Shown here: positions 7,199-28,672 of the stretch, piece by piece
How the letters are laid out: each line of letters opens with the position of its first letter
How positions within the stretch are numbered: position 1 is the first letter of the stretch
Source of the DNA: Solidesulfovibrio sp.
GTDB lineage: Bacteria > Desulfobacterota > Desulfovibrionia > Desulfovibrionales > Desulfovibrionaceae
Direction: 5' to 3'
DNA length: 33,975 nt
NCBI RefSeq assembly: GCF_029978005.1
Contig: NZ_JARKOZ010000033.1
Coordinates: forward strand, 1 to 33,975
The notes under the pieces: generated by a model
Told to the model about the DNA's origin: nothing
The model's input: the letters and a program-made list of their open reading frames with translations, nothing else
The model's database searches: none
Made by a program: the position numbers and the translations under genes

Positions 7199-9019
7199 AT
7201 GGGCACTTGCGTCACCTTGCGCGGCGTCGCCAAATCCTATGGCGTGCGCCGCCTTTTCACCGACATCTCCCTGACCGTCTCCGACCAGGAGCGCATCGGG
7301 CTCATCGGCCCCAACGGCTCCGGCAAATCCACCTTGCTCAAGATCCTGGCCGGCCTCGAGACGCCGGACGCCGGCGAACGGACCCTGCGCCAGGGGGCCC
7401 GTCTCGCCTACGTGGCCCAGCAGGACGCCTTCGACCCCGGGACGACGGTGGAGCGGGTGGTGACCGAGGCGGCCGTGGCCGCCTTCGGCCGGCCGGCCGA
7501 GGAGGCCGAGCAGCGAAAGCGTGTGGCCGTGACCCTGGGACGCCTTGGCTTCGAGGAGCCGGAGGCGGCCGTGGACGCCCTGTCCGGCGGCTGGCGCAAG
7601 CGGCTGTCCATCGCCCGGGCCCTGGTGTCCGAGCCCGACGCCCTGCTCCTGGACGAGCCCACCAACCACCTGGACCTGGCCTCCATCCTGTGGCTCGAAC
7701 GGTTTCTGGCCGGCGCGTCCTTCGCCTTCGTGGTGGTCAGCCACGACCGGTTCTTTCTGGAAAACGTCTGCCGGCGCACCGTGGAGCTCTCGGCCGCCTA
7801 CCCGCGCGGCTTCTTGAGCGTGGACGGCCCCTACAGCGCGCTGCTCGAGGCCAGGGAGGCGTTCCTGGCCAGCCAGGGAGCCCTGGAGCAGACCCTGGCC
7901 AACAAGGCCCGGCGCGAGATCGAGTGGCTGCGCCGCGGACCCAAGGCCCGGGCCACCAAGGCCAAGGGGCGCATCGACGCGGCCGGGGAGCTGTTCGAGG
8001 AACTGGCCGCGACACGGGCGCGAAACCGTGAGACGGTCCGGGCGGGCATCGATTTTTCCGCTTCCGGCCGCCAGACCAGGCGGCTGGTCGTGGCCGAGGG
8101 TCTGGCCAAGGCTTACGAAGAGCGGCCCCTTTTCCGGGACCTGGACATCGTGCTTGCGCCCGGCGCGCGCCTGGGCCTGGCCGGGCCCAACGGCTCGGGC
8201 AAGTCCACGCTGCTACGCGTCCTGGCCGGGCTCGAACGGCCCGACGCCGGCAGGGTGTCCCACGCGCCCGGGCTCGAGGTCGTGGTCTTCGACCAGAAGC
8301 GCGAGCAGCTCGACAAGGAGCAGATCCTGCGCCACGCCTTTGCCCCGGACAGCGACAGCGTCATCTACCGGGGGCAGCCCGTGCACGTGGTCACCTGGGC
8401 CAGACGCTTCGCCCTGCGGCCCGAGCAGCTGGACCTGCCGGTGGGGCTTTTGTCCGGCGGGGAGCAGGCGCGCGTGCTCATCGCCCGGCTCATGCTGCGC
8501 CCGGCCGACGTGCTCCTTCTCGACGAGCCCACCAACGACCTGGACATCCCCACCCTGGAGATGCTTGAGGAAAGCCTGCTGGAATTTCCGGGCGCGGTGG
8601 TGCTGGTCACCCACGACCGGTCGCTGCTCGACCGCGTGTCCACGCGGCTGCTCGGCCTCGACGGCGCGGGCGGATCGGAGGTCTACGCCGACTACGGCCA
8701 ATGGGAGGCCGAATTCGAGGCCAGGCGCAGGGACCAGGCCCGGGCCGCCCGGGAGGACAAGCCGCAAAGGCCCAAACCCCGGCCCCAGGGCGGGACGAAA
8801 AAGCTCACCTTCAAGGAACAGCGGGAATACGACGGCATGGAGCAGGCCATCGCCGCGGCCGAGGCGGCCCAGGCCGCAGCCCAGGCCGCCCTGGAGGACC
8901 CGGCCGTGGCCAGCGACGGCGCTGAGCTCTCCCGCCGCCTGGAGGCCTTCCAGGCGGCCGAGGCCGCTGTCGAGGCCCTCTACGCCCGCTGGGCCGCACT
9001 CGAGGAAAAGCTCGCCTAG
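7199..9019 (+). CDS. ABC-F family ATPase, Uup-like
   Basis: Soluble protein of about 606 aa with two ABC cassettes and no membrane segment, as in the ribosome-associated ABC-F family. Both cassettes are intact: GPNGSGKST, LSGGWRKRL and LLLDEPTNHLDL in the first; GPNGSGKST, LSGGEQARV and LLLDEPTNDLDI in the second. The C-terminal tail begins KKLTFKEQREYDGMEQAI and continues as an Ala/Glu-rich coiled coil, which is typical of Uup rather than EttA. I chose the ATG at 7199 because MGTCVTLRGVAKSYG matches the family opening; the frame extends 22 codons upstream to 7133 in sequence that does not look coding. No clear ribosome site precedes either. ABC-F proteins act on translating ribosomes; the exact role here is not shown by sequence. 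Confidence 0.9.
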   Translation: MGTCVTLRGVAKSYGVRRLFTDISLTVSDQERIGLIGPNGSGKSTLLKILAGLETPDAGERTLRQGARLAYVAQQDAFDPGTTVERVVTEAAVAAFGRPAEEAEQRKRVAVTLGRLGFEEPEAAVDALSGGWRKRLSIARALVSEPDALLLDEPTNHLDLASILWLERFLAGASFAFVVVSHDRFFLENVCRRTVELSAAYPRGFLSVDGPYSALLEAREAFLASQGALEQTLANKARREIEWLRRGPKARATKAKGRIDAAGELFEELAATRARNRETVRAGIDFSASGRQTRRLVVAEGLAKAYEERPLFRDLDIVLAPGARLGLAGPNGSGKSTLLRVLAGLERPDAGRVSHAPGLEVVVFDQKREQLDKEQILRHAFAPDSDSVIYRGQPVHVVTWARRFALRPEQLDLPVGLLSGGEQARVLIARLMLRPADVLLLDEPTNDLDIPTLEMLEESLLEFPGAVVLVTHDRSLLDRVSTRLLGLDGAGGSEVYADYGQWEAEFEARRRDQARAAREDKPQRPKPRPQGGTKKLTFKEQREYDGMEQAIAAAEAAQAAAQAALEDPAVASDGAELSRRLEAFQAAEAAVEALYARWAALEEKLA

Positions 9020-18093: not shown

Positions 18094-18122
18094 TATAAGG
18101 TTGTCGGCGGCGCGACAACTTT
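18094..18122 (+). promoter_or_regulatory. Palindrome at the putative promoter of the trmO-GTPase-ABC operon
   Basis: AAGGTTGTCG (18097-18106) and CGACAACTTT (18113-18122) are inverted repeats (9 of 10 pairs) around a 6-nt spacer GCGGCG. A TATAAG hexamer (18094-18099), a possible -10, overlaps the left arm. Position and symmetry suit an operator over the transcription start, about 130 nt before the first gene. The regulator is unknown; a matching -35 was not found. Confidence 0.4.
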
Positions 18123-18251
18123 GTATCGCGTAAAAACGGAATTGTCCGGTCCGATTGTCGGTCAAGCCGGAAAACCAGCGATTCCGCGCCGTCCGCCCTG
18201 GCCCGATTCTTGATGCAGCCGATCGGGGCGTCCGGCCTCCAAGGAAACGAC

Positions 18252-18749
18252 GTGAACGACCAGACGCAAGAAGGCATCGCCTACCGCGCCATCGGCATCC
18301 TGCGTTCGCCCTTTCGCGACATCCAGGGCATGCCCATCCAGCCCGTGGGGGCTCTGGGCGTGGCCGGCCACGTGGAGGTGCACCCGGATTTCGCCGGCGG
18401 CCTGCGCGACCTGGAAGGCTTTTCCCACGTCTTCCTGCTCTATCACCTGCACCGGGTGACGGGCTACGACCTCGTCGTGCGGCCTTTCCTCGACAACGCC
18501 GACCATGGCATCTTCGCCACCCGCTCGCCCAAGCGGCCCAACCCCATCGGCCTGTCCGTGCTGGAACTGGCCGGCGTCGAGGGGCACGTGGTGCGCCTGC
18601 GCAACGTGGACGTCCTCGACGGCACTCCGGTGCTCGACATCAAGCCCTATGTGCCGCATTTTGACGTCTGGCAGGCCGGCCGCATCGGCTGGTTCGACGC
18701 CAAGGCCGAAAACGCCGGGAACTACATTTCCGACGACCGCTTTCGTTAA
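18252..18749 (+). CDS. trmO: TsaA/TrmO-like SAM-binding protein
   Basis: 165-aa protein of the TsaA/TrmO beta-barrel family. In E. coli, TrmO uses SAM to methylate N6 of threonylcarbamoyl-adenosine 37 in tRNA-Thr. Family signatures: AIGILRSPF at the start, the central FSHVFLLYHLHR, TRSPKRPNPIGLS and VLDGTPVLDIKPYVP. This is the short single-domain form without the C-terminal extension of E. coli TrmO. I chose the GTG at 18252, preceded by AAGGA at 6 nt; an in-frame ATG at 18210 lacks a ribosome site. It heads an operon with a metallochaperone-type GTPase, an ABC ATPase and a binding protein, so its role here may differ from tRNA modification. The symbol is by family and the function is not proven. 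Confidence 0.85.
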   Translation: MNDQTQEGIAYRAIGILRSPFRDIQGMPIQPVGALGVAGHVEVHPDFAGGLRDLEGFSHVFLLYHLHRVTGYDLVVRPFLDNADHGIFATRSPKRPNPIGLSVLELAGVEGHVVRLRNVDVLDGTPVLDIKPYVPHFDVWQAGRIGWFDAKAENAGNYISDDRFR

Positions 18750-18775
18750 CCCCGCCGAGGAGAAATCAAGCCTTC

Positions 18776-19474
18776 ATGAAATGCGTCACCGTGGCCGGAC
18801 CGCCCTCGTCCGGCAAGACGTCGATCCTGCTCAAGGCCGCCGCCGTCCTGGCCGGACGCGGCCAGCGCCTGGGCGTGGTCAAGTTCGACTGCCTGGCCAG
18901 CCGCGACCGCGAGGCCTTCGCCGCCGCCGGGGTCCCGGCCGTGGTCGGGCTGTCCGGGGCGCTGTGCCCGGACCATTTCTACGTGTGCAATGCCGCCGAC
19001 GCCTTCGCCTGGGGAGCGCGCCAGGGACTGTCCATCCTGGCCGTGGAAAGCGCTGGCCTCTGCAACCGCTGCGCCCCCCACATCGAGGGGGTGCTGGCCG
19101 TGTGCGTGGTGGACAGCCTTTCCGGCGTGGACACCCCGGCCAAGATCGGCCCCATGCTGCGCCTGGCCGACGTGGTGGCCGTGACCAAGGGCGACGTGGT
19201 CTCCCAGGCCGAGCGCGAGGTCTTCGCCTTCCGGGTGCGCCGGGTCAATCCCCGGGCCACGGTGCTCTTCGTCAGCGGCCTTACCGGCCAGGGGGCCGAC
19301 GCCCTGGCCCACGTCATCGCCGCCGCGCCCGAGACGCCGACCCTCGACGGCGCGACGCTTCGCTTCACCATGCCCGCCGCCGTGTGCTCCTACTGCCTGG
19401 GCCAGCGCCGGGTGGGCGCGGACCACCAGATGGGCAACGTGCGCAAGATGGATTTCTCCGAGGTCGCCCCGTGA
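18776..19474 (+). CDS. HypB/CobW-like GTPase with three cysteine pairs
   Basis: 232-aa SIMIBI-class GTPase. Walker A GPPSSGKTS is at residues 8-16; an ESAGLC motif near 91-96 resembles the G3E family; TKGD at about 137-140 is a variant of the NKxD guanine-specificity motif. Cysteines come in pairs: Cys64 and Cys71 (LCPDHFYVC), Cys96 and Cys99 (CNRC), Cys204 and Cys207 (CSYC, followed by LGQRRVGADHQMGN). HypB, UreG and CobW relatives deliver nickel, cobalt or zinc to enzymes, so a metal-handling role is inferred; no known target gene is adjacent. GAGGAGA lies upstream of the ATG. The stop overlaps the next gene's GTG start by 4 nt. There is no His-rich tail. Confidence 0.8.
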   Translation: MKCVTVAGPPSSGKTSILLKAAAVLAGRGQRLGVVKFDCLASRDREAFAAAGVPAVVGLSGALCPDHFYVCNAADAFAWGARQGLSILAVESAGLCNRCAPHIEGVLAVCVVDSLSGVDTPAKIGPMLRLADVVAVTKGDVVSQAEREVFAFRVRRVNPRATVLFVSGLTGQGADALAHVIAAAPETPTLDGATLRFTMPAAVCSYCLGQRRVGADHQMGNVRKMDFSEVAP

Positions 19475-20484
19475 CCGGGTCGAGCCGGGAGATGGCCCGG
19501 CCGTTCAAGGAACTGTGGCGCGAGCTCGGGGCCAGCCGCGACTTCTTCGCCGTTCAGGGCCTGCCCGCGCCCGCGCCCGAGGCCACGCCCGAGGCCTATT
19601 TCGCCGCCCTGGGCGAGGCGGTCCTCATCGAGGCCGGCTGCTCCCGCGAGGAGCTGGCCGCCCGTTTCGGGAAGTTCCTGGCCGCCCTTGGCCGCATCGA
19701 CGCCGCGCCGCCCGTGGTCGCGTCCATGACCGTGCGCGGCGGCGCGGACAAGCGCGGCCGGCCCGAGACCCTCGACATCACCCTCGTGCCCGGCGACGTG
19801 GTGGCCCTGGTCGGCCCCACCGGTTCGGGCAAGAGCCGGTTTCTGGCCGACGTCGAATGGCTGGCCGACGCCGACACCCCCACCGGTCGGCGCGTGCTCC
19901 TGGACGGCGCGCCCGCCGACGCCGCCCGCCGCTTGTCGCTTTCCGGCCGGCTGGTGGCCCAGCTCTCCCAGAACATGCATTTCGTCATGGACATGGCCGT
20001 GGGGCCGTTTCTTTGCGCCCACGCCGAGAGTCGCCTGCTGGCCGATCCCGACCGGGCCGCCGCCGAGGTGACGGCGCTGGCCAACGAGCTGGCCGGCGAG
20101 CCCTTCGACGCCGCCACGCCCCTGACCGCCCTGTCCGGCGGCCAGAGCCGGGCGCTCATGATCGCCGACGTGGCCCGCCTGTGCGCCTCGCCCGTGGTGC
20201 TCGTGGACGAGATCGAAAACGCCGGCATCGACCGCCGCCGCGCCATCGCGCTTCTCACCGGCAGCGGCAAGATCGTGCTCGTGGCCACCCACGACCCGCT
20301 GCTGGCCCTGCTCGCCTCGCGCCGCCTGGTCTTTTCCGGCGGGGCCGTGGCCCATACCCTCGAAACCTCGCCGGCCGAACGCCGGGCCCTCGCGGAACTG
20401 GCCGCCCTGGACGCCGTCCTCACCCGGGCCAGAGAGGACCTGCGCCTGGGACGCACGGTCGCCGCGCACAAGGAGACGCACTGA
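19471..20484 (+). CDS. Soluble ABC ATPase with extra N-terminal helical domain
   Basis: 337 aa starting at GTG in the GTGA overlap with the GTPase gene. Residues about 1-85 are a helical domain, not part of the cassette. The ABC core follows: Walker A GPTGSGKS at about 115-122, Q-loop QLSQNMHFVMD, signature LSGGQ at about 221-225, Walker B VVLVDEIENAG, and switch histidine ATHDP. The residue after the Walker B Asp is Glu, so ATP hydrolysis should work. No transmembrane protein exists in the operon. The N-terminal domain resembles by eye that of the next gene product: both have RD..A..GL/V, then an aromatic, and end near G(C/L)(S/T)..(E/A)L. I infer a non-transport ABC protein acting with the cytosolic binding protein. 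Confidence 0.82.
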   Translation: MTGSSREMARPFKELWRELGASRDFFAVQGLPAPAPEATPEAYFAALGEAVLIEAGCSREELAARFGKFLAALGRIDAAPPVVASMTVRGGADKRGRPETLDITLVPGDVVALVGPTGSGKSRFLADVEWLADADTPTGRRVLLDGAPADAARRLSLSGRLVAQLSQNMHFVMDMAVGPFLCAHAESRLLADPDRAAAEVTALANELAGEPFDAATPLTALSGGQSRALMIADVARLCASPVVLVDEIENAGIDRRRAIALLTGSGKIVLVATHDPLLALLASRRLVFSGGAVAHTLETSPAERRALAELAALDAVLTRAREDLRLGRTVAAHKETH

Positions 20485-21692
20485 TGGAAGAAGGCGCTCT
20501 CGACTGGCCGGTCACCCGGTTTCTGGCCCGTCATCCCGCCGCCCGCGACGCCCTGGCCGGCCTGGGTGTCGCCGCCGTGGCCGACGCCGAATTCCTGGCC
20601 TCGGCCGCGCCGTTTCTGACCATGGCCACGCTGCTTTCCCTGCACGGCCTGACCCCGGCCGCCCTCGACCGGGCCCTGGCCGGGGCCGGGCCCGCCGCCG
20701 GCATGGTGCCGCTTTTCTGCGACGGCTACCGCGCCGATGGGACCGGGCCGCGCATGTTCTTAAGCCTCCCCTGTCCCCTCAAGGCCCCCATGGGCATCGC
20801 CCTGGAAAACCTCAAGGAACGCCTGGGGCCGGATTTCCCCTGGCCGCGCATCTTCATGGACAGCTGCGGCAAGCACACCCTCAACGACCTGGCCGCCGGG
20901 CTGACCACGGCCCGGGAAGTGCCGGATCTCATCGTTTCCGCGGGCCTCAACGGCTTCTTGTCCAAGAGCTTTCGCGACCGCTTCGCGGACGGCGGCCTGC
21001 TGGCCAGGCTGCCCCAGGAGATGCACCCGGCCCTGGCCCGCGCGGGCCTGGCCGACCCGCGCGGCGTGTGCCGCATCTACGGCGTCAACCCGCTGGTCAT
21101 CGCCGTGGTCGTCTCCCGCCTGGGCGGGCTGCCCGTGCCGCGCTCCTTCGACGATCTGCTCGATCCGGCCTACGCCGGCAGGATCGGCCTGTGCGGACCG
21201 CCGGAAACCGCCGGCGACTCCACGCTGCTCCTCGACATCCGCCTGCGCCACGGGCCCGGGGCCGTGGCCGCCCTGGGCCGGGCCATGGTCTGCGACACCC
21301 ACCCGTCCCAGATCTTCCGCCCCGCCCCGGGGACCAACCCGCCGCCCATCGGCGTCATGCCCTCTTTCTTCGCCACCGCCGCGCCGCGCCGCGACGACGT
21401 GCGCCTCGTCTGGCCCGAGGAGGGCGGCCTCGTCTCGCCGCTTTTCGTCATGGTCAAGGAAAAGGCCCTGCCCACCCTCGGCCCGCTGGTGGAGTTCTTC
21501 ACCGGCCCGGAAACCGCCGCCATCAGCGCCGGGGCGCTTATCCCCCCCACCTGCCCGGATGCGCCTTCGGGCCTGCCCCAGGGGGCCAAGGTCGGCTTCA
21601 TCGGCTGGGACGTGCTCGAAGCCAACGACCTGGGAGCCCTCATCGCCGAAGCCGGCGCGACCTTCGCGGAAGCGTACTACGCCTCGCACTGA
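20484..21692 (+). CDS. Cytosolic substrate-binding-protein-like protein (PBP2 fold) with DUF1858-like N-terminus
   Basis: 402 aa, starting one base inside the ABC gene's stop (TGATG), with AAGGAG upstream. Residues about 1-75 form a helical module like DUF1858/ScdA_N (DWPVTRFLARHPAARDALAGLGV) but without its cysteine pair. The rest resembles iron-type type II binding proteins: YGVNPLVIAVVVSRLGGLP, SFDDLLDPAYAGRIGLCGPPETAGDS, and WPEEGGLVSPLFVMVKEKA. There is no signal peptide, Tat motif or lipobox, so it should stay in the cytosol, which is very unusual for this fold. A Cys and a His in MDSCGKHTLND could bind metal. It could scavenge or present a metal or a metallocofactor to the ATPase. The ligand is unknown. 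Confidence 0.8.
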   Translation: MEEGALDWPVTRFLARHPAARDALAGLGVAAVADAEFLASAAPFLTMATLLSLHGLTPAALDRALAGAGPAAGMVPLFCDGYRADGTGPRMFLSLPCPLKAPMGIALENLKERLGPDFPWPRIFMDSCGKHTLNDLAAGLTTAREVPDLIVSAGLNGFLSKSFRDRFADGGLLARLPQEMHPALARAGLADPRGVCRIYGVNPLVIAVVVSRLGGLPVPRSFDDLLDPAYAGRIGLCGPPETAGDSTLLLDIRLRHGPGAVAALGRAMVCDTHPSQIFRPAPGTNPPPIGVMPSFFATAAPRRDDVRLVWPEEGGLVSPLFVMVKEKALPTLGPLVEFFTGPETAAISAGALIPPTCPDAPSGLPQGAKVGFIGWDVLEANDLGALIAEAGATFAEAYYASH

Positions 21693-21898: not shown

Positions 21899-22543
<645 letters not shown>

Positions 22544-23232: not shown

Positions 23233-24420
23233 CTAGAACACCCGCATGTGGGTTTCCTTGAGGAACTTCTCCTCGAGCACCGTGCGGATGCGCTTGACGA
23301 TGTTGCGCCGGATCTCCAGGTCGATGGGCAGGTTGGGGTCCTGGTGCGCCTCGTTGATGCGCGCCCCGACCACGAACTCGATGGAATCGCTGTCGAGGAA
23401 GATTTCGTAAAGCTGGGTGGCCGGGTTTTTCTCGCGCGGCACCTCGTCGCTTTCCAGCAGTTGGGCGGTGCGCGTCAGCGTCAGGATGCCCTCGGTCACC
23501 AGGTCCACGCCGTCCATCTCCGCCGCCGGCGGAATGTCGCCGCCGCCCCGGCCCGGGCCCGTCAGGCAGTCGCGGATGGTCAGTTCGAGTTCCCGGGCCA
23601 CGATGTTGGCCGTGGTGCCGCCGCAGATGACCTTGCGCCCGTTGAAGTCCCCCAGGGCCTCGGCGAATTCCCTGTCGCGGCCCGAAGCGTAGGGCGGCCC
23701 GGTCAGGATGATGGTGCGCCGGGGCCGGCGCAGGTAGATCACGGCCGCGGTCATGTCGTCGAAGGCGCGCTGGAACGGCTCCTGGCGCAGGGCCTGGGAC
23801 AGGATCTTCTGCGACAGGGCCCGGGCGGAGATCTTCGGGTCCTTGCCCACCTGCTCCAGGGCGAATTCCCGGCAGCCCTTGATGCGCCAGCCCAGGCGCA
23901 GCCGCTCGGACCCCAGCCCCGCCTGGGTGATGCCGTCCGAGGTGAAGATCAGCCGGTCCCCGGGGTGCAGCGCCATGTCGTAGACCCGGATCACCCGGTC
24001 GTTGTAGCGCGGCGAGGACACTTCCTCGTACTCCAGGTTGACCGCCAGCCCGTCGCGCACCAGCGTCACGGGCGGGTTGTCCATCTCGACGACCCGCGCT
24101 CCGCCGTTGGGGTGGATGTCCACCACCGTGAAGGTGGCGTAGCTGATCTTGCGCACCTGGCACACCGGCAACGCGTCCATGATGACCTCGGCCGCGCGCA
24201 CGATGTCCGTGTCGCTGGCCGTGTACTTGAGCGCCATGGTGGCGGTCATGAGCGACAGGATCGAGGCCTTGACCCCGTGGCCGAGCCCGTCGGAGAGCAC
24301 GGCGATGGTGCGCCCCTCGTCCGGCAGGCGCAGGGTCTTGAAGGCGTCGCCGCAGATGTCCTCGCCGTGGCGGTTGCGCTGGGACGCCTCGACCTCGACG
24401 AACACCTCCTCCCGGGTCAT
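23233..24420 (-). CDS. SpoIIE/PP2C-type protein phosphatase, output of the H2 sensor
   Basis: 395 aa, soluble. The N-terminal half is a SpoIIE-like PP2C domain: the metal-binding VLSDGLGHG near residues 40-48, FTSDGITQAG, and DDMTAAVIYL, supplying the Asp ligands for Mn/Mg. The C-terminal part (about 220-395) reads RTIILTGPPYASGRDREF, then KVICGGTTANIVAREL. It is a separate conserved domain found behind such phosphatases in anaerobes; I do not know its role. The ATG overlaps the stop of the [FeFe] hydrogenase gene by 4 nt (ATGA). The expected job is to dephosphorylate a Ser/Thr target, possibly an anti-sigma-factor antagonist, in response to H2. No kinase or antagonist gene is nearby. Confidence 0.87.
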   Translation of the reverse strand: MTREEVFVEVEASQRNRHGEDICGDAFKTLRLPDEGRTIAVLSDGLGHGVKASILSLMTATMALKYTASDTDIVRAAEVIMDALPVCQVRKISYATFTVVDIHPNGGARVVEMDNPPVTLVRDGLAVNLEYEEVSSPRYNDRVIRVYDMALHPGDRLIFTSDGITQAGLGSERLRLGWRIKGCREFALEQVGKDPKISARALSQKILSQALRQEPFQRAFDDMTAAVIYLRRPRRTIILTGPPYASGRDREFAEALGDFNGRKVICGGTTANIVARELELTIRDCLTGPGRGGGDIPPAAEMDGVDLVTEGILTLTRTAQLLESDEVPREKNPATQLYEIFLDSDSIEFVVGARINEAHQDPNLPIDLEIRRNIVKRIRTVLEEKFLKETHMRVF

Positions 24421-26168
24421 GCGCGACGTCCCCGCAGCTCTTTTTCGGTCAGGGCCCGGGCTCCGCTGGAAAAACCCTCGGACAGCGAGCGCAGCAATAT
24501 CTCGGTGTCGGCCATGTTCTCGCCCAGGCGGCAGGCGATCTCCTGCACGGTTTCCAGGTTCTTGCGGATGATCTCGCGGGCCCGGTGGGCGATCTCCTCG
24601 CGGCGCAGCTCCGAGCCCGTGACGTCGAAGATGACGCCGCCGATGACGCTTCGCGGCTCGATGGTGAAGATGGTCACGCTGAACACCCGGTCGTCCTGGC
24701 GCAGGGCGTCGCGGTGGATGTCGGTTTCGGTCTCGAGCGCCCGGCGGAAAAGCGCGATGAAGGGCACGATCTTCTCGAGCGCCGCCCCCTCCATGCCGGG
24801 GCTGGCCTCGTAGGCCATGAGCACCTCCTCGCCGAAAAGCCTGGCGAAGTGCTCGTTGCACTCGATGATGTGCAGCTTGTTGTCCGCGATGACCACGCCG
24901 GCGGGAATGCAGCGAAGGAGCGCATTGGCCTTGCGCGTGGCGCGCTTTCGCAGGAAATGCACGCACATCGACGGCTCGGCCAGGCCCTCCAGCATGGCCC
25001 GCGCCAGCCCGCGGCAGGTCTCGTGGCCACAGCCGCCGCAGTTGATCTCGTCCTCCGGGGCGAACTTGCCGATCAGGCGCAGCACCTTGACGTACTGGTC
25101 CTCGCTGTAGACCGGCAGGTCCACCGGGGCCGGGTTCTTGCGCTCGGCGATGGACAGGGCGGGCGGGCGCACCGGCGTCTCGGGCGCGGGCTTGGCCGAC
25201 CGGTTGAACACGTCGAGCTGGTCGAGCAGGCGCGGCCGGTGGCTGGACACGCACGGCCCGCGCACGCAGCCGCCCACGCAGGCCAGCATCTCCACGAAGA
25301 CCGGCCGGGGCAACACATGGTTCTGGATGCCCTGCAAGGCGGATTCGATGGTCGGGATGCCCGACAGGGTGGTGAAGCAGACCTGGGCGTTGCCGGCGTA
25401 GGCCTTGACCGTGTCCGACATGCCGCCCTCGATGGGGTAGAGCGCCCCTTCCCTGGCCGGCTGGGGCATGAACACGTCGGCCGGGCCGGGAATGAGCGCG
25501 GCCGGGTTGATGTCCTCCTGGCGCAGCATGGCCCGCAGGTCGGTGAAGGTCATGGCCGCGTCGAGCAGGCCGGGGTGGTTGTCGGCCTCGGTCTTTTTGG
25601 CCACGCAGGGCCCGAAGAAGACCACGCCGATGTGCTGGCCGTAGGCCCGGCGCAGCAGGCGGCAGTGGGAGAGCAGCGGCGAGAGCAGCGGCGAGAGGTT
25701 GGGCACGAGCTCGGGCATGTAGCCCCGGATGAAGTCCACCGCCGCCGGGCAGGCCGTGGAGAGCAGAAGCCTGGGGCCGCCCTGGGACAGGCTCTGGGCC
25801 ACGGCGGCCGAGACCTCCTGGGCCCCGAGCGCCGTTTCGGACACGCCGGAAAAGCCGAGCCGGCGCAGGGCGGCGATCATGGCCTGGGGCGAGACGTCGG
25901 GAAATTCCGTCACCCAGGACGGGGCCAGGGAGACGTAGGTCGGGCGGGAGGAGCGCAGGAGCTTGAAGACCGCGAAGAGGTCGCTGCGCACCTGTTTGGC
26001 GTGTGAGGGACAGGCGGCCACGCACTGGCCGCAGGCGATGCACAGCTCCGGCACCACGGTCGCTCTTCCCGACTCCACCTGGATGGCCTTGACCGGGCAG
26101 TGGCGCAGGCAGCGGTAGCAGTCCTGGCACTCGGTTTCGATGGTGTAGATGGGGTAGTGCTTGAGCAT
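24417..26168 (-). CDS. hydS: Sensory [FeFe] hydrogenase (HydS/HsfB type) with PAS domain
   Basis: 583 aa. The N-terminus has two [4Fe-4S] motifs (CQDCYRCLRHCP; CIACGQCVAACP). The H-cluster domain follows with all four cluster ligands: STACP, GPCVAKKTE and ACVGGC. In catalytic enzymes the first motif is TSCCP, with the extra Cys moving protons; here it is Ala, as in sensory types. Next are a PF04060-like Fe-S motif (CGGCGHETC ending at SMC) and a PAS domain near 430-540 (IPAGVVIADNKLHIIECN), then a coiled helical end. No signal peptide. The ATG at 26168 has GGAGG 4 nt upstream. It lies between a [2Fe-2S] protein and a SpoIIE phosphatase, with the latter overlapping. I infer H2 or redox sensing passed through PAS to the phosphatase. 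Maturases HydEFG are not in the window. Confidence 0.92.
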   Translation of the reverse strand: MLKHYPIYTIETECQDCYRCLRHCPVKAIQVESGRATVVPELCIACGQCVAACPSHAKQVRSDLFAVFKLLRSSRPTYVSLAPSWVTEFPDVSPQAMIAALRRLGFSGVSETALGAQEVSAAVAQSLSQGGPRLLLSTACPAAVDFIRGYMPELVPNLSPLLSPLLSHCRLLRRAYGQHIGVVFFGPCVAKKTEADNHPGLLDAAMTFTDLRAMLRQEDINPAALIPGPADVFMPQPAREGALYPIEGGMSDTVKAYAGNAQVCFTTLSGIPTIESALQGIQNHVLPRPVFVEMLACVGGCVRGPCVSSHRPRLLDQLDVFNRSAKPAPETPVRPPALSIAERKNPAPVDLPVYSEDQYVKVLRLIGKFAPEDEINCGGCGHETCRGLARAMLEGLAEPSMCVHFLRKRATRKANALLRCIPAGVVIADNKLHIIECNEHFARLFGEEVLMAYEASPGMEGAALEKIVPFIALFRRALETETDIHRDALRQDDRVFSVTIFTIEPRSVIGGVIFDVTGSELRREEIAHRAREIIRKNLETVQEIACRLGENMADTEILLRSLSEGFSSGARALTEKELRGRRA

Positions 26169-26275
26169 GCCGCCTCCCTGGGTTCCGGTGTCGGGCAAGC
26201 TGGTGGGCATTGTCTGCTTCCTGGGGAGCGAAGGCAAGGGGAAGGCTCTGTCTGGCGGGATGCCGGGGCGCGGGA

Positions 26276-26518
26276 TTACTGGGAAAGATGGCGGCTTAGG
26301 AGTTCCATGAGACGCTCGCCGTTGATCTCGCCGTAGAGCTGGCCGTCGATGCGGATGTTGGGCCCCGTGCGGCACTGGTCCTCGCAACGGCTGCCGGTGA
26401 GCACCACGCTGTCGGTCAGGCCGTGGTCGGCCAGGTACTGCTCGATCATGAGCAGGTGCTTCTTGTTGCCCCGGGCGAAACACGAACTGCCCATGCAGAT
26501 GACGATTTCATGCTTCAT
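26276..26518 (-). CDS. Thioredoxin-like [2Fe-2S] ferredoxin
   Basis: 80-aa protein of the NuoE/HydC C-terminal type. Four cysteines sit in the family spacing: CMGSSC near the start (residues 9-14) and CEDQC near 45-49. It begins MKHEIVICMGSSCFARGN and ends with GEINGERLMELLSRHL. Such proteins pass electrons to or from [FeFe] hydrogenases. It is the first gene of the sensor operon, 107 nt before hydS. The ribosome site is weak. An AT-rich segment (26525-26585) upstream probably contains the operon promoter, but no clear hexamers were found. Confidence 0.88.
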   Translation of the reverse strand: MKHEIVICMGSSCFARGNKKHLLMIEQYLADHGLTDSVVLTGSRCEDQCRTGPNIRIDGQLYGEINGERLMELLSRHLSQ

Positions 26519-27164: not shown

Positions 27165-28466
27165 CTAGTGGGAATGCCCGGAACCCAGTTCCGTCAGGGA
27201 ACGGGCCAGGCTGGACAGGCCCGAGGACCGGGCCAGGACAAGCGGTTTGAGGCAGCCCTTGCAGGCCTGCTTGACCAGGGCGCAGGCCTCGTGGCTCACG
27301 CAGTCCACGGGGCACACCACGGCATCGGCCGCGCCGAGCAGCTCCCAGAGCCGGTGGGCCGACTGCTCCCGGCCGCCGTCGTGGTGCAGCAGTTCGCAGC
27401 CGAATTTTGCGGCCAGAAGCTTGTAGTGGGAGACCAGCGAGCAGCGGCCGCCCACGTAGAGCACCCGTTTGCCGGCCAGGCCGGAGGGGCCTTCGGCCCG
27501 GCAGGGGCAGGCCCCGCCGCAGGAGCCCTCGGCCAGGCCCTGTTCCCGGCAGGCGCAGGGCGCGTGGCCGGCGGGGACGTCCAGCTCGTCGCGGTGGTGT
27601 TCGGCGTGGGCGGCATGGGCCGCGGCCGCGTCGCCGAGGGCGGCGAAGAGCGTCGCCTCCAGCGCCTCCACCTCGCCTGTCCGGTCGGCCAGGTCCTGGC
27701 GAGCCAGGGAGAGCTCGGCGTGGACCCGCTCCAGGGCCAGGGCCTGCCGGCCCGCCTCGGCCTCGGTGGCCTCCAGGCGGGCGGCGACCTCGGCCAGCTG
27801 GTCGCGCAGGATGTCGCGGTCGCGGCGCACGGCGGCCACGGCCGAGTTCTCGATGGCCTCGCGCAGGGAAATGCGTTCGCGTTCGGCCGCCTGCCGCTTG
27901 ACGCGCTCGGCGGCGAGCTCCTCCATGGCCTCGCGGCAGCGGCCCTTCCACACGGCCACGGCCTGGCGCAGCACGGCCTTGCTTTCCTCCAGGGCGGCCT
28001 CGGTCTCGGCCAGCCGCTCCTCCAGCCGGGCCAGCCGGGACAGGTCGGCCCGGTTGGCCGCGCCCACCCGGTGGGAGAGCATGTGCACCTCGCCGTAGAC
28101 CTCGCGCAACAGCGCCTCGGGCACGGTGGGGTGGGACATCAGGGCCCAGAAGGGGCCGGGCACGTCGCCGGCGTCGGCGCGCTCGCGCCACATGCGCCTG
28201 AGTTCCGCCGGGTCGTCCACGCGCAGAAAGGCCCGCAGGTCCTTGCGGAACTTCTTGTCCAGAAAGCGCTGCAGGTGCTTGGCCGGCCCGCCGCCCGCCA
28301 CCTTGGCCTGGCCGACGAGAAAGACGTGGGCCTCGTAGTCCGAGGCGTCCTCGGACACGGCGTCGCCGCATTTGCGGCACAGGCGGCGCAGCTCGGCCAT
28401 GGTCAGGCAGGTGCCCACGATGGGGCAGGCGTAGTCGGCGTTGTCCCAAAGCGTCCTTCGCGTCAT
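27165..28466 (-). CDS. DUF2325 protein with cysteine-rich segments and long coiled coil
   Basis: 433 aa, cytosolic. The N-terminus has CPIVGTCLTMAELRRLCRKC. A charged coiled coil spans about 140-290. A second Cys cluster follows (CACREQG, then CGGACPC), and the C-terminal DUF2325 domain starts near KRVLYVGGRCSLVSHYK and contains CPVDCVSHEACALVK and CKGC. DUF2325 folds like a small Rossmann domain; function unknown. The Cys content suggests metal binding. AAGGAGGG precedes the ATG at 28466. Upstream lie a TTGACA element and Fur-like sites, so iron control is likely. It is common in anaerobes, but I cannot assign a reaction. Confidence 0.85.
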   Translation of the reverse strand: MTRRTLWDNADYACPIVGTCLTMAELRRLCRKCGDAVSEDASDYEAHVFLVGQAKVAGGGPAKHLQRFLDKKFRKDLRAFLRVDDPAELRRMWRERADAGDVPGPFWALMSHPTVPEALLREVYGEVHMLSHRVGAANRADLSRLARLEERLAETEAALEESKAVLRQAVAVWKGRCREAMEELAAERVKRQAAERERISLREAIENSAVAAVRRDRDILRDQLAEVAARLEATEAEAGRQALALERVHAELSLARQDLADRTGEVEALEATLFAALGDAAAAHAAHAEHHRDELDVPAGHAPCACREQGLAEGSCGGACPCRAEGPSGLAGKRVLYVGGRCSLVSHYKLLAAKFGCELLHHDGGREQSAHRLWELLGAADAVVCPVDCVSHEACALVKQACKGCLKPLVLARSSGLSSLARSLTELGSGHSH

Positions 28467-28515
28467 GACGGTCCCTCCTTCGAAAGCGCCGCGCGTCCCG
28501 CGGCGGTCATGTCGG

Positions 28516-28544
28516 GTGTAATTGAAATTGAAATTCGTTGTCAA
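28516..28544 (-). promoter_or_regulatory. Putative iron-regulated promoter of the DUF2325 gene
   Basis: On the minus strand TTGACA (28544-28539) is followed 17 nt later by TTACAC. GACAACGAATTTCAATTTC, at 28542-28524, matches the 19-bp Fur box at about 12 positions. The arrangement repeats that of the flavodoxin promoter, where TTGACA also leads into the Fur box. Confidence 0.5.
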
Positions 28545-28636
28545 TAAAAATGCCGCTGATCGACCGGGGCAGGTTGCGGCGTGTCGGCAAAGGGGGCGAG
28601 GGGACATGGCGGCGCTCCGGGGTTGGGCGAGACGTG

Positions 28637-28672
28637 TTGTCATTAAATCGATTGAGTTAATGATAATTAAAA
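28637..28672. promoter_or_regulatory. Second Fur-like palindrome upstream of the DUF2325 gene
   Basis: TTGTCATTAA (28637-28646) and TTAATGATAA (28657-28666) are inverted repeats (9 of 10) around ATCGATTGAG. The right arm, GTTAATGATAAT, is close to a Fur half-site pair. CATTAAATC followed by A or G and ATT also occurs beside the flavodoxin Fur box. The only gene it can serve is on the minus strand, about 170 nt away. Confidence 0.5.

Follow-up and report, generated by a model that had tools for sequence, protein, structure and literature searches.

The stretch of DNA analysed here (the window) comprises 33,975 nucleotides of a Solidesulfovibrio sp. (assembly GCF_029978005.1, contig NZ_JARKOZ010000033.1) and contains, at 18252-21692, genes for a TsaA-like protein, a GTPase of the G3E (HypB/UreG/CobW) type, a soluble ATP-binding cassette (ABC) ATPase and a binding protein of the SBP_bac_6 family. 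The last three form a module which occurs in many anaerobic bacteria, often near nitrogen-fixation and molybdenum-uptake genes. In the group of bacteria to which the window belongs, the link of the module to nitrogenase is strong, and we hold it with high confidence. A cytosolic metal-trafficking module for nitrogenase, driven by nucleoside triphosphates, is the best explanation and may well be right; its metal, docking, delivery and target are what we infer. The preliminary description, which was made from the sequence, had proposed a cytosolic GTP- and ATP-dependent device for a metal cofactor. This is still the best reading, backed by nitrogenase, Mod, TonB/FecCD, NRAMP, DUF364 and HypA-like neighbours, while the four-gene membership given to the device did not stand.

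All neighbour and conservation counts refer to the best 80 of 210 loci from a GTPase scan of species-representative genomes. The GTPases of these loci are 56-94% identical and ten phyla are named among them, although some labels of metagenome-assembled genomes may be wrong. The genes for the binding protein, the GTPase and the ABC ATPase were found within a few kb of each other in 78 of the 80 loci, a count that includes five loci in which a contig end cuts the binding protein (L027, L051 and L073) or the ABC ATPase (L032 and L089). Both loci without the full trio (L042 and L044) sit at contig ends. The genes most often run binding protein - GTPase - ABC ATPase, and in Solidesulfovibrio they run GTPase - ABC ATPase - binding protein. 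When a tree of 101 GTPases was drawn, a strongly supported group of 24 (100/99) was observed, which holds all of the HypA-like, Hcp and Fusobacterium loci and is referred to below as the second clade, as distinct from the window's group.

The four genes of the window share one direction and all four frames are real according to open reading frame, Pfam and NCBIfam scans. As first described, the GTPase and ABC ATPase genes overlap by 4 nt (19471-19474) and the ABC ATPase and binding-protein genes by 1 nt (20484); the gap between the TsaA and GTPase genes is 26 nt. Gene order and overlaps suggest an operon. None of the four frames encodes a permease, in agreement with the earlier statement that no membrane protein is encoded. 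The "four-gene operon" itself has to be narrowed, since the conserved unit consists of three genes and a TsaA homologue was found in 8 of the 80 loci (three Solidesulfovibrio, four Verrucomicrobia and one Pelosinus). A gene-neighbourhood search for the four families, which the preliminary description had proposed, bore out the set of GTPase, ABC ATPase and binding protein and not TsaA; the nitrogen-fixation link, which is the strongest evidence, was absent from that account.

The PF00142 (NifH) model matched all of the 59 relatives and all 14 controls and was too broad, so NifD was used as the nitrogenase marker. In a phylum sample of 296 evenly drawn genomes, 70 were NifD-positive at an E-value of 1e-140 or lower (66 of them over the cut-off). 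A GTPase with at least 49% identity was present in 13 of these 70 genomes and in none of the 226 NifD-negative ones (Fisher p = 3e-9, or 1e-8 with the window genome left out). In G257, one of the 13, the sole copy belongs to the second clade. The sample gave 15 GTPase matches at E-values of 1e-30 or lower, and the two outside the 13 (39-40% identity) are in NifD-negative genomes. Counting these two divergent copies against the link gives p = 2e-7 and counting by genus gives p = 3e-6 (nine genera, all NifD-positive), though Fisher tests do not fully remove relatedness. Among the 59 relatives, the GTPase was matched in 17 (E-value of 1e-70 or lower), of which 15 have a match to the broad NifH model at 1e-100 or lower and the other two (G002 and G007) show NifH fragments. 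NifD was also searched in 45 module genomes (those of 45 of the 80 loci), of which 36 matched at 0.001 or lower, 35 at 1e-150 or lower and 32 over the cut-off. At 1e-150, the window's group had NifD in 31 of its 33 genomes and the second clade in 4 of its 12 (p = 8e-5); the two misses in the window's group are G083 and G080, the latter with a weaker nitrogenase-type match only. At G000:C64:41680-42491 and G000:C157:542-1354, the nifH gene of the window genome was itself matched as two overlapping pieces in different frames and another nifH copy has one in-frame TAG, due to either assembly error or decay.

Within 8 kb of the module, ModA was found in 19 loci, ModB in 19 and ModD in 10; TonB in 15, Peripla_BP_2 in 14 and FecCD in 13; NifX-like proteins in nine, NifD/K-type in seven, NifB-like in six, NifH in five and CowN in five; and the "nitrogenase-associated" family TIGR01616 in six. 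A nif-type neighbour was present in 23 of the 80 loci when NifA was excluded. These categories are sequence clusters of which one or a few representatives were checked with hidden Markov models (HMMs): "NifA" stands for any sigma-54 activator, "ModE" matches were assigned by cluster and not individually, and the NifB and NifX representatives lie below their NCBIfam cut-offs. The HMM-checked representatives are those of NifD, VnfD, AnfK, NifK, TIGR01616, ModA, ModB, ModD, ModE domains, NifV, CowN, Hcp, PF12727 regulators, DUF364, NRAMP, FecCD and the TonB receptor. According to gene maps, the module shares an island with FecCD/TonB-type genes, anf genes, modEDABC and a NifA-type activator; the island of G236 also contains nifHDK.

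When an alternative nitrogenase was found on the contig of the module, it was 6-21 kb away in eight of ten cases (AnfD at about 8 and 9 kb in two Pelosinus and at 11, 13, 16, 18 and 21 kb; VnfD at 6 kb), and in these cases NifD is often elsewhere. AnfD is enriched among the module-bearing NifD-positive genomes (4 of 13 versus 2 of 57, p = 0.009; 0.03 without the window genome). An accessory role restricted to Anf was rejected, as NifD is present in 36 of the 45 module genomes at 0.001 or lower and AnfD exceeds its cut-off in only 13.

The GTPase was confirmed as a HypB/CobW-like protein of the G3E type (PF02492, 37.5 bits; cut-off 20.7), and P-loop residues G8, P9, P10, G13, K14 and T15 are invariant in the alignment. 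Its best NCBIfam match, hypB (TIGR00073), reaches 43.9 bits and is far below the cut-off of 121, which places the protein outside the HypB family. Six Cys residues (C64, C96, C99, C110, C204 and C207) are invariant in all 81 sequences; four of them make up two CxxC pairs and the other two stand alone, which corrects the "three Cys pairs" first reported. From these residues and the neighbourhood, the GTPase is predicted to be a metallochaperone of the G3E kind which binds and delivers a metal. It resembles HypB, UreG and CobW (G3E review PMC9164220) in being a P-loop G3E GTPase with conserved Cys and with adjoining metal-uptake and metalloenzyme genes and in having a HypA-like zinc-ribbon partner in one module clade. 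It differs from them in its scores, which fall far short of the cut-offs for hypB and ureG, in its Cys pattern, in its association with an ABC ATPase and with a binding protein and in its link to nitrogenase.

The ABC ATPase has a complete nucleotide-binding domain (PF00005, 46 bits; cut-off 25) and no permease domain, so that the earlier description of it as soluble holds. Key residues of Walker A, signature, Walker B and H-loop are invariant in 22 aligned sequences. In the AlphaFold model (mean pLDDT 88.1, pTM 0.73), residues 4-76 form a helical N-terminal domain. Fold matches are generic ABC ATPases, archaeal SmsC structures among them. Like the SufC-type ATPases of Fe-S assembly, the module ATPase is without a permease and presumably acts on a soluble partner; it differs in its DUF1858-like N-terminal domain and in having a partner with the periplasmic-binding-protein (PBP) fold. 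SufB or SufD were not noticed beside the module, though no search was aimed at them.

The binding protein belongs to SBP_bac_6 (PF13343, 182 bits; cut-off 24.6) and has the PBP2 fold according to a fold search. Its model (mean pLDDT 88.5, pTM 0.78) resembles ferric-ion, sugar-phosphate and related binding proteins. Cys97 is conserved in 74 of 77 sequences and His273 in 72; judged from secondary structure, both would lie at the usual ligand place of the fold. The preliminary description had noted that a signal peptide is missing, and this was borne out for the window protein (over its first 35 residues, 15-residue hydropathy peaks at 1.32, below the threshold of 1.8) and across the family, as a hydrophobic N-terminus was absent from 76 of the 77 complete binding proteins whichever start was tried (three fragments left out). 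In L097, the exception, such an N-terminus arises solely when an upstream TTG is taken as the start; its ATG gives none. In controls from the same loci, 19 of 20 ModA proteins passed the threshold and only 8 of 14 Peripla_BP_2 proteins did, so the test is imperfect.

At the N-terminus, the DUF1858 (PF08984) cut-off was passed in three of four module proteins (L026, L070 and L078; not L079). Pfam did not detect the domain in the window binding protein, where a family profile matches the solved domain 2fi0. The N-terminal domains of the ABC ATPase and the binding protein are related (hhalign probability 93%; control comparison 0.5%), which suggests that the two proteins may dock together in the cytosol. 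FbpA, FutA and AfuA share the fold and Pfam family of the binding protein; the module protein differs from them in being cytosolic by sequence, in its conserved Cys97 and His273, in having no cognate permease and, in many cases, in its extra N-terminal helical domain. Additional binding proteins of the family were observed at L091 2123-3166 and L095 2418-3689 beside FecCD-type importer genes, and the copy of L095, not that of L091, passed the DUF1858 cut-off. A second copy was also found in G011 (L102 9636-10790), and a Peripla_BP_2-like gene follows it at a distance of a few kb.

Taking all metal readings together, the module probably handles a metal, as indicated by the GTPase family, the Cys and His conservation and the surrounding transporters. 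In the mechanism that we favour, the metal would enter via ModABC, a TonB/FecCD importer or NRAMP, and the binding protein, in which Cys97 and His273 are candidate ligands, would retain it in the cytosol. The soluble ABC ATPase would use the related helical domains at the N-termini to dock to the binding protein, which its ATP cycle would then open so that the ligand is freed. The ligand would move to the Cys-rich GTPase, which could pass it on to cofactor assembly (NifB/NifEN/Vnf/Anf) in a GTP-gated step. Either molybdenum, as the heterometal, or iron would be the most likely metal, and demand would be highest when molybdenum is scarce, since ModABC, molybdenum-type regulators, alternative nitrogenases and outer-membrane importers keep company with the module. 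TsaA would be an optional helper.

We put forward more tentatively that the module is an undescribed energy-driven machine for nitrogenase metal insertion, which mobilises scarce molybdenum (or sorts molybdenum, vanadium and iron) mostly in diazotrophs without NifQ, and whose sister clade serves another metalloenzyme with a miniature HypA. A literature search limited to listings, abstract openings and term passages, with subscription papers mostly outside it, met no description of the gene set, and term searches of C. difficile HcpR and Fur papers (PMC12915319 and PMC6311696) and of an alternative-nitrogenase survey (PMC5328986) gave nothing on the module. For the question of how diazotrophs without NifQ bring molybdenum or iron to the cofactor of nitrogenase, the module supplies concrete candidate genes, and it could matter for the transfer of nitrogenase to other hosts. 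The membrane-free cytosolic pairing of a binding protein with an ABC ATPase, if true, would be an unusual use of transporter parts.

The region upstream of the module (Table 1) was compared within the genus. All 12 nifH copies examined in the genus have ACAWTTTTGT upstream, eight of them twice, and ACAANTTTGT occurs once in the 34-kb window, at the module operon (0.47 chance matches expected with one mismatch allowed). A matrix trained on nifH puts the module site in first place in four cases (the window, L020, L021 and L023), whereas in L108 the site comes second and in L022 fourth; the scores are below those of the nifH training sites in all of them (15.5 in the window versus 20.9-25.9). TGGC-N7-TTG has what we take to be sigma-54 promoter spacing, with GC as the consensus at -12, and the nifH copies carry TGGCATGACTC[TC]TGC in 10 of 12 (read from the alignment). 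About 85 nt upstream of the sigma-54-like element, ACANNTTTGT is kept in the nine rows covering the stretch. The dyad is presumably shaped like a NifA-type upstream site, and TGY-N10-ACA is kept in eight of nine Solidesulfovibrio rows covering it, with full TGT in the window only. It is also a possible CRP/CooA-type site, one chance match being expected. The nifH-like site and TGGC-N7-TTG suggest that the module is co-regulated with nif in Solidesulfovibrio. Sigma-54 sites outside Solidesulfovibrio were unconvincing (10 of 51 loci versus 4.6 expected in the window's group; 1 of 20 versus 0.8 in the other clade). At L102 16103-16118, a strong nifH-type upstream site was observed just beyond the Peripla_BP_2-like gene.

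Table 1 Positions in the window of the module genes and of candidate upstream elements
Feature	Position	Strand	Basis
TGT-N10-ACA dyad TGTCGGCGGCGCGACA	18102..18117	+	Sole hit to TGTCGNNNNNNCGACA in the window when up to one mismatch is allowed; about 1 expected by chance
GACAACTTTGT, element like ACAWTTTTGT upstream of nifH in the same genus	18114..18124	+	Motif and matrix search
Sigma-54-like element TGGC-N7-TTG, TGGCCCGATTCTTGAT	18199..18214	+	Kept in 10/10 Solidesulfovibrio upstream regions (alignment)
TrmO_N/TsaA-like protein, optional member of the set	18252..18749	+	PF01980, E=5e-40; TIGR00104 (TrmO), 123 bits (cut-off 93)
G3E (HypB/UreG/CobW-type) GTPase with six invariant Cys	18776..19474	+	PF02492, E=2e-9
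Soluble ABC ATPase, helical N-terminal domain and complete nucleotide-binding domain	19471..20484	+	Pfam, model
SBP_bac_6 binding protein, cytosolic by sequence, DUF1858-like N-terminal helical domain	20484..21692	+	PF13343, E=1e-53

Several observations weigh against a metal-trafficking role for nitrogenase. The module is absent from 57 of the 70 NifD-positive genomes of the phylum sample and from some NifH-positive relatives, which means that nitrogen can be fixed without it. The NifD-positive genomes that lack it, together with a sister clade that is largely without nif, tell in particular against molybdenum scarcity, and the presence of the module beside genes of Mo-, V- and Fe-only nitrogenases means that molybdenum is not the sole candidate metal. 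VnfD is 55 kb off in the L054 genome and AnfD 2.2 Mb off in G174, and AnfD lies on a different contig in five AnfD-positive genomes of the window's group and in the window genome. No tallied neighbour family was present in 19 of the 80 loci. The SBP_bac_6 fold binds sugar phosphates and phosphonates too. The dyad, nifH-like and sigma-54-like elements are weak as patterns: the sigma-54 pattern has 11 matches in the window versus 13.9 expected, which is not above chance, the -12 GC of the consensus is found in only one of ten upstream regions, and the nifH-type motif is absent upstream of anfH in the window genome.

The same architecture is present in bacteria without nif (eight of the 12 second-clade genomes searched and, in the window's group, G083). 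The second clade is largely independent of nitrogenase. Hcp and YgbA adjoin the module there, and in a Fusobacterium it is beside ZnuA and ABC-3 genes. Trichlorobacter has both types, one by nifH and a NifA-type activator and one by a HypA-like gene. This HypA-like gene follows the ABC ATPase gene at L066 9702-9941 and in nine further loci, and its products mostly have 79-80 amino acids and start with MHE, MHD or MHQ. The N-terminal MHE of HypA binds nickel. The match to the HypA zinc ribbon is weak (E-value 0.005), and the product of about 80 amino acids is maybe a miniature HypA.

NifQ is the molybdenum donor in the synthesis of the iron-molybdenum cofactor (FeMo-co) in proteobacteria, and the module might likewise act in molybdenum supply, with unrelated proteins. 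The NifQ model matched none of the 59 relatives and no control, yet it found NifQ in two of the 45 module genomes, and only in those two. A simple replacement of NifQ by the module was rejected, as NifH-positive relatives exist which have neither NifQ nor the module.

The most serious alternative, which we regard as possible and no better than doubtful, is that the module supplies or repairs iron or Fe-S units, rather than a heterometal, for nitrogenase in one clade and for Hcp and others in the second, perhaps under CO or NO stress. Iron is the metal shared by the three nitrogenases beside which the module is found, an NRAMP gene is directly upstream of the module in L128 and L131, and ferric-ion binding proteins are among those with the fold of the binding protein. 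Hcp adjoins both Tepidibacter loci, and YgbA_NO and CowN are neighbours in eight and five of the 80 loci. However, the neighbouring ModA, ModB and ModD genes and the PF12727 regulators point to molybdenum. FbpA binds Fe(III) through a Tyr pair, and no such pair is among the conserved columns of the binding protein. Divergent pairs of ABC ATPase and GTPase (39-40% identity) with no detectable binding protein were observed in L138 and L139, where they adjoin Rrf2 regulators and, in L139, also a class-V aminotransferase of the cysteine-desulfurase type and an FeS-domain protein. They are possibly an Fe-S version of the pair and fit the supply of iron or Fe-S units.

It is unlikely that the binding protein senses cytosolic metal while the ATPase and GTPase signal to, or sequester, an activator of alternative-nitrogenase or molybdenum-uptake genes. 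The adjoining NifA-type activator, ModE and PF12727 regulators and the enrichment of AnfD would agree with such a sensor, but a Pfam scan of the three proteins showed no domain for DNA binding or signalling, two complete NTPase machines exceed the needs of a sensor and the module is also found in genomes without an alternative nitrogenase.

Still less probable is that the proteins are the soluble parts of an ordinary ABC importer whose permease is encoded elsewhere and whose binding protein is exported in an unusual way. Every importer part except the permease is present and FecCD-type importers are nearby in 13 of the 80 loci. On the other hand, 76 of 77 binding proteins have no signal-peptide-like segment, a result to be read with the ModA (19 of 20) and Peripla_BP_2 (8 of 14) controls, and the N-terminal domain common to the binding protein and the ATPase fits a soluble complex. 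A permease that always co-occurs, which the preliminary description had named as evidence against its proposal, was not found within about 8 kb, the distance to which this result applies; the only permeases tallied with the module were ModB (19 of 80) and FecCD (13 of 80). A HypAB-type loader of nickel or another divalent metal, hitch-hiking with nif and unrelated to nitrogenase chemistry, is the least probable of these, for although the GTPase is nearest to HypB/UreG and the second clade has a HypA-like partner, none of the 226 NifD-negative genomes of the phylum sample has a copy with at least 49% identity.

The TsaA gene adjoins the module in the Verrucomicrobia loci L055, L060 and L084 and in Pelosinus (L095), and is 7.8 kb off in Verrucomicrobia L054. 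The window genome has three TrmO_N genes including that of the window, so the copy beside the module may be specialised, with only a putative tRNA role. Upstream of the GTPase gene of L023 (Desulfovibrio sp. DV; about 7565-8143), a match to only the N-terminal part of TsaA was observed, and the gene may be degraded there.

Further downstream in the window, TTGACAATGAGACTCATTATCATT at 22014-22037, which we take to be Fur-box-like, precedes a flavodoxin gene (22085-22543). On the minus strand, the gene at 24417-26483 encodes a protein with [FeFe]-hydrogenase large-subunit C-terminal, ferredoxin, FeS and PAS domains which is far under the hydrogenase cut-offs and is, by its domain content, a sensor-like hydrogenase relative, and the gene at 27165-28643, also on the minus strand, encodes a DUF2325 protein.

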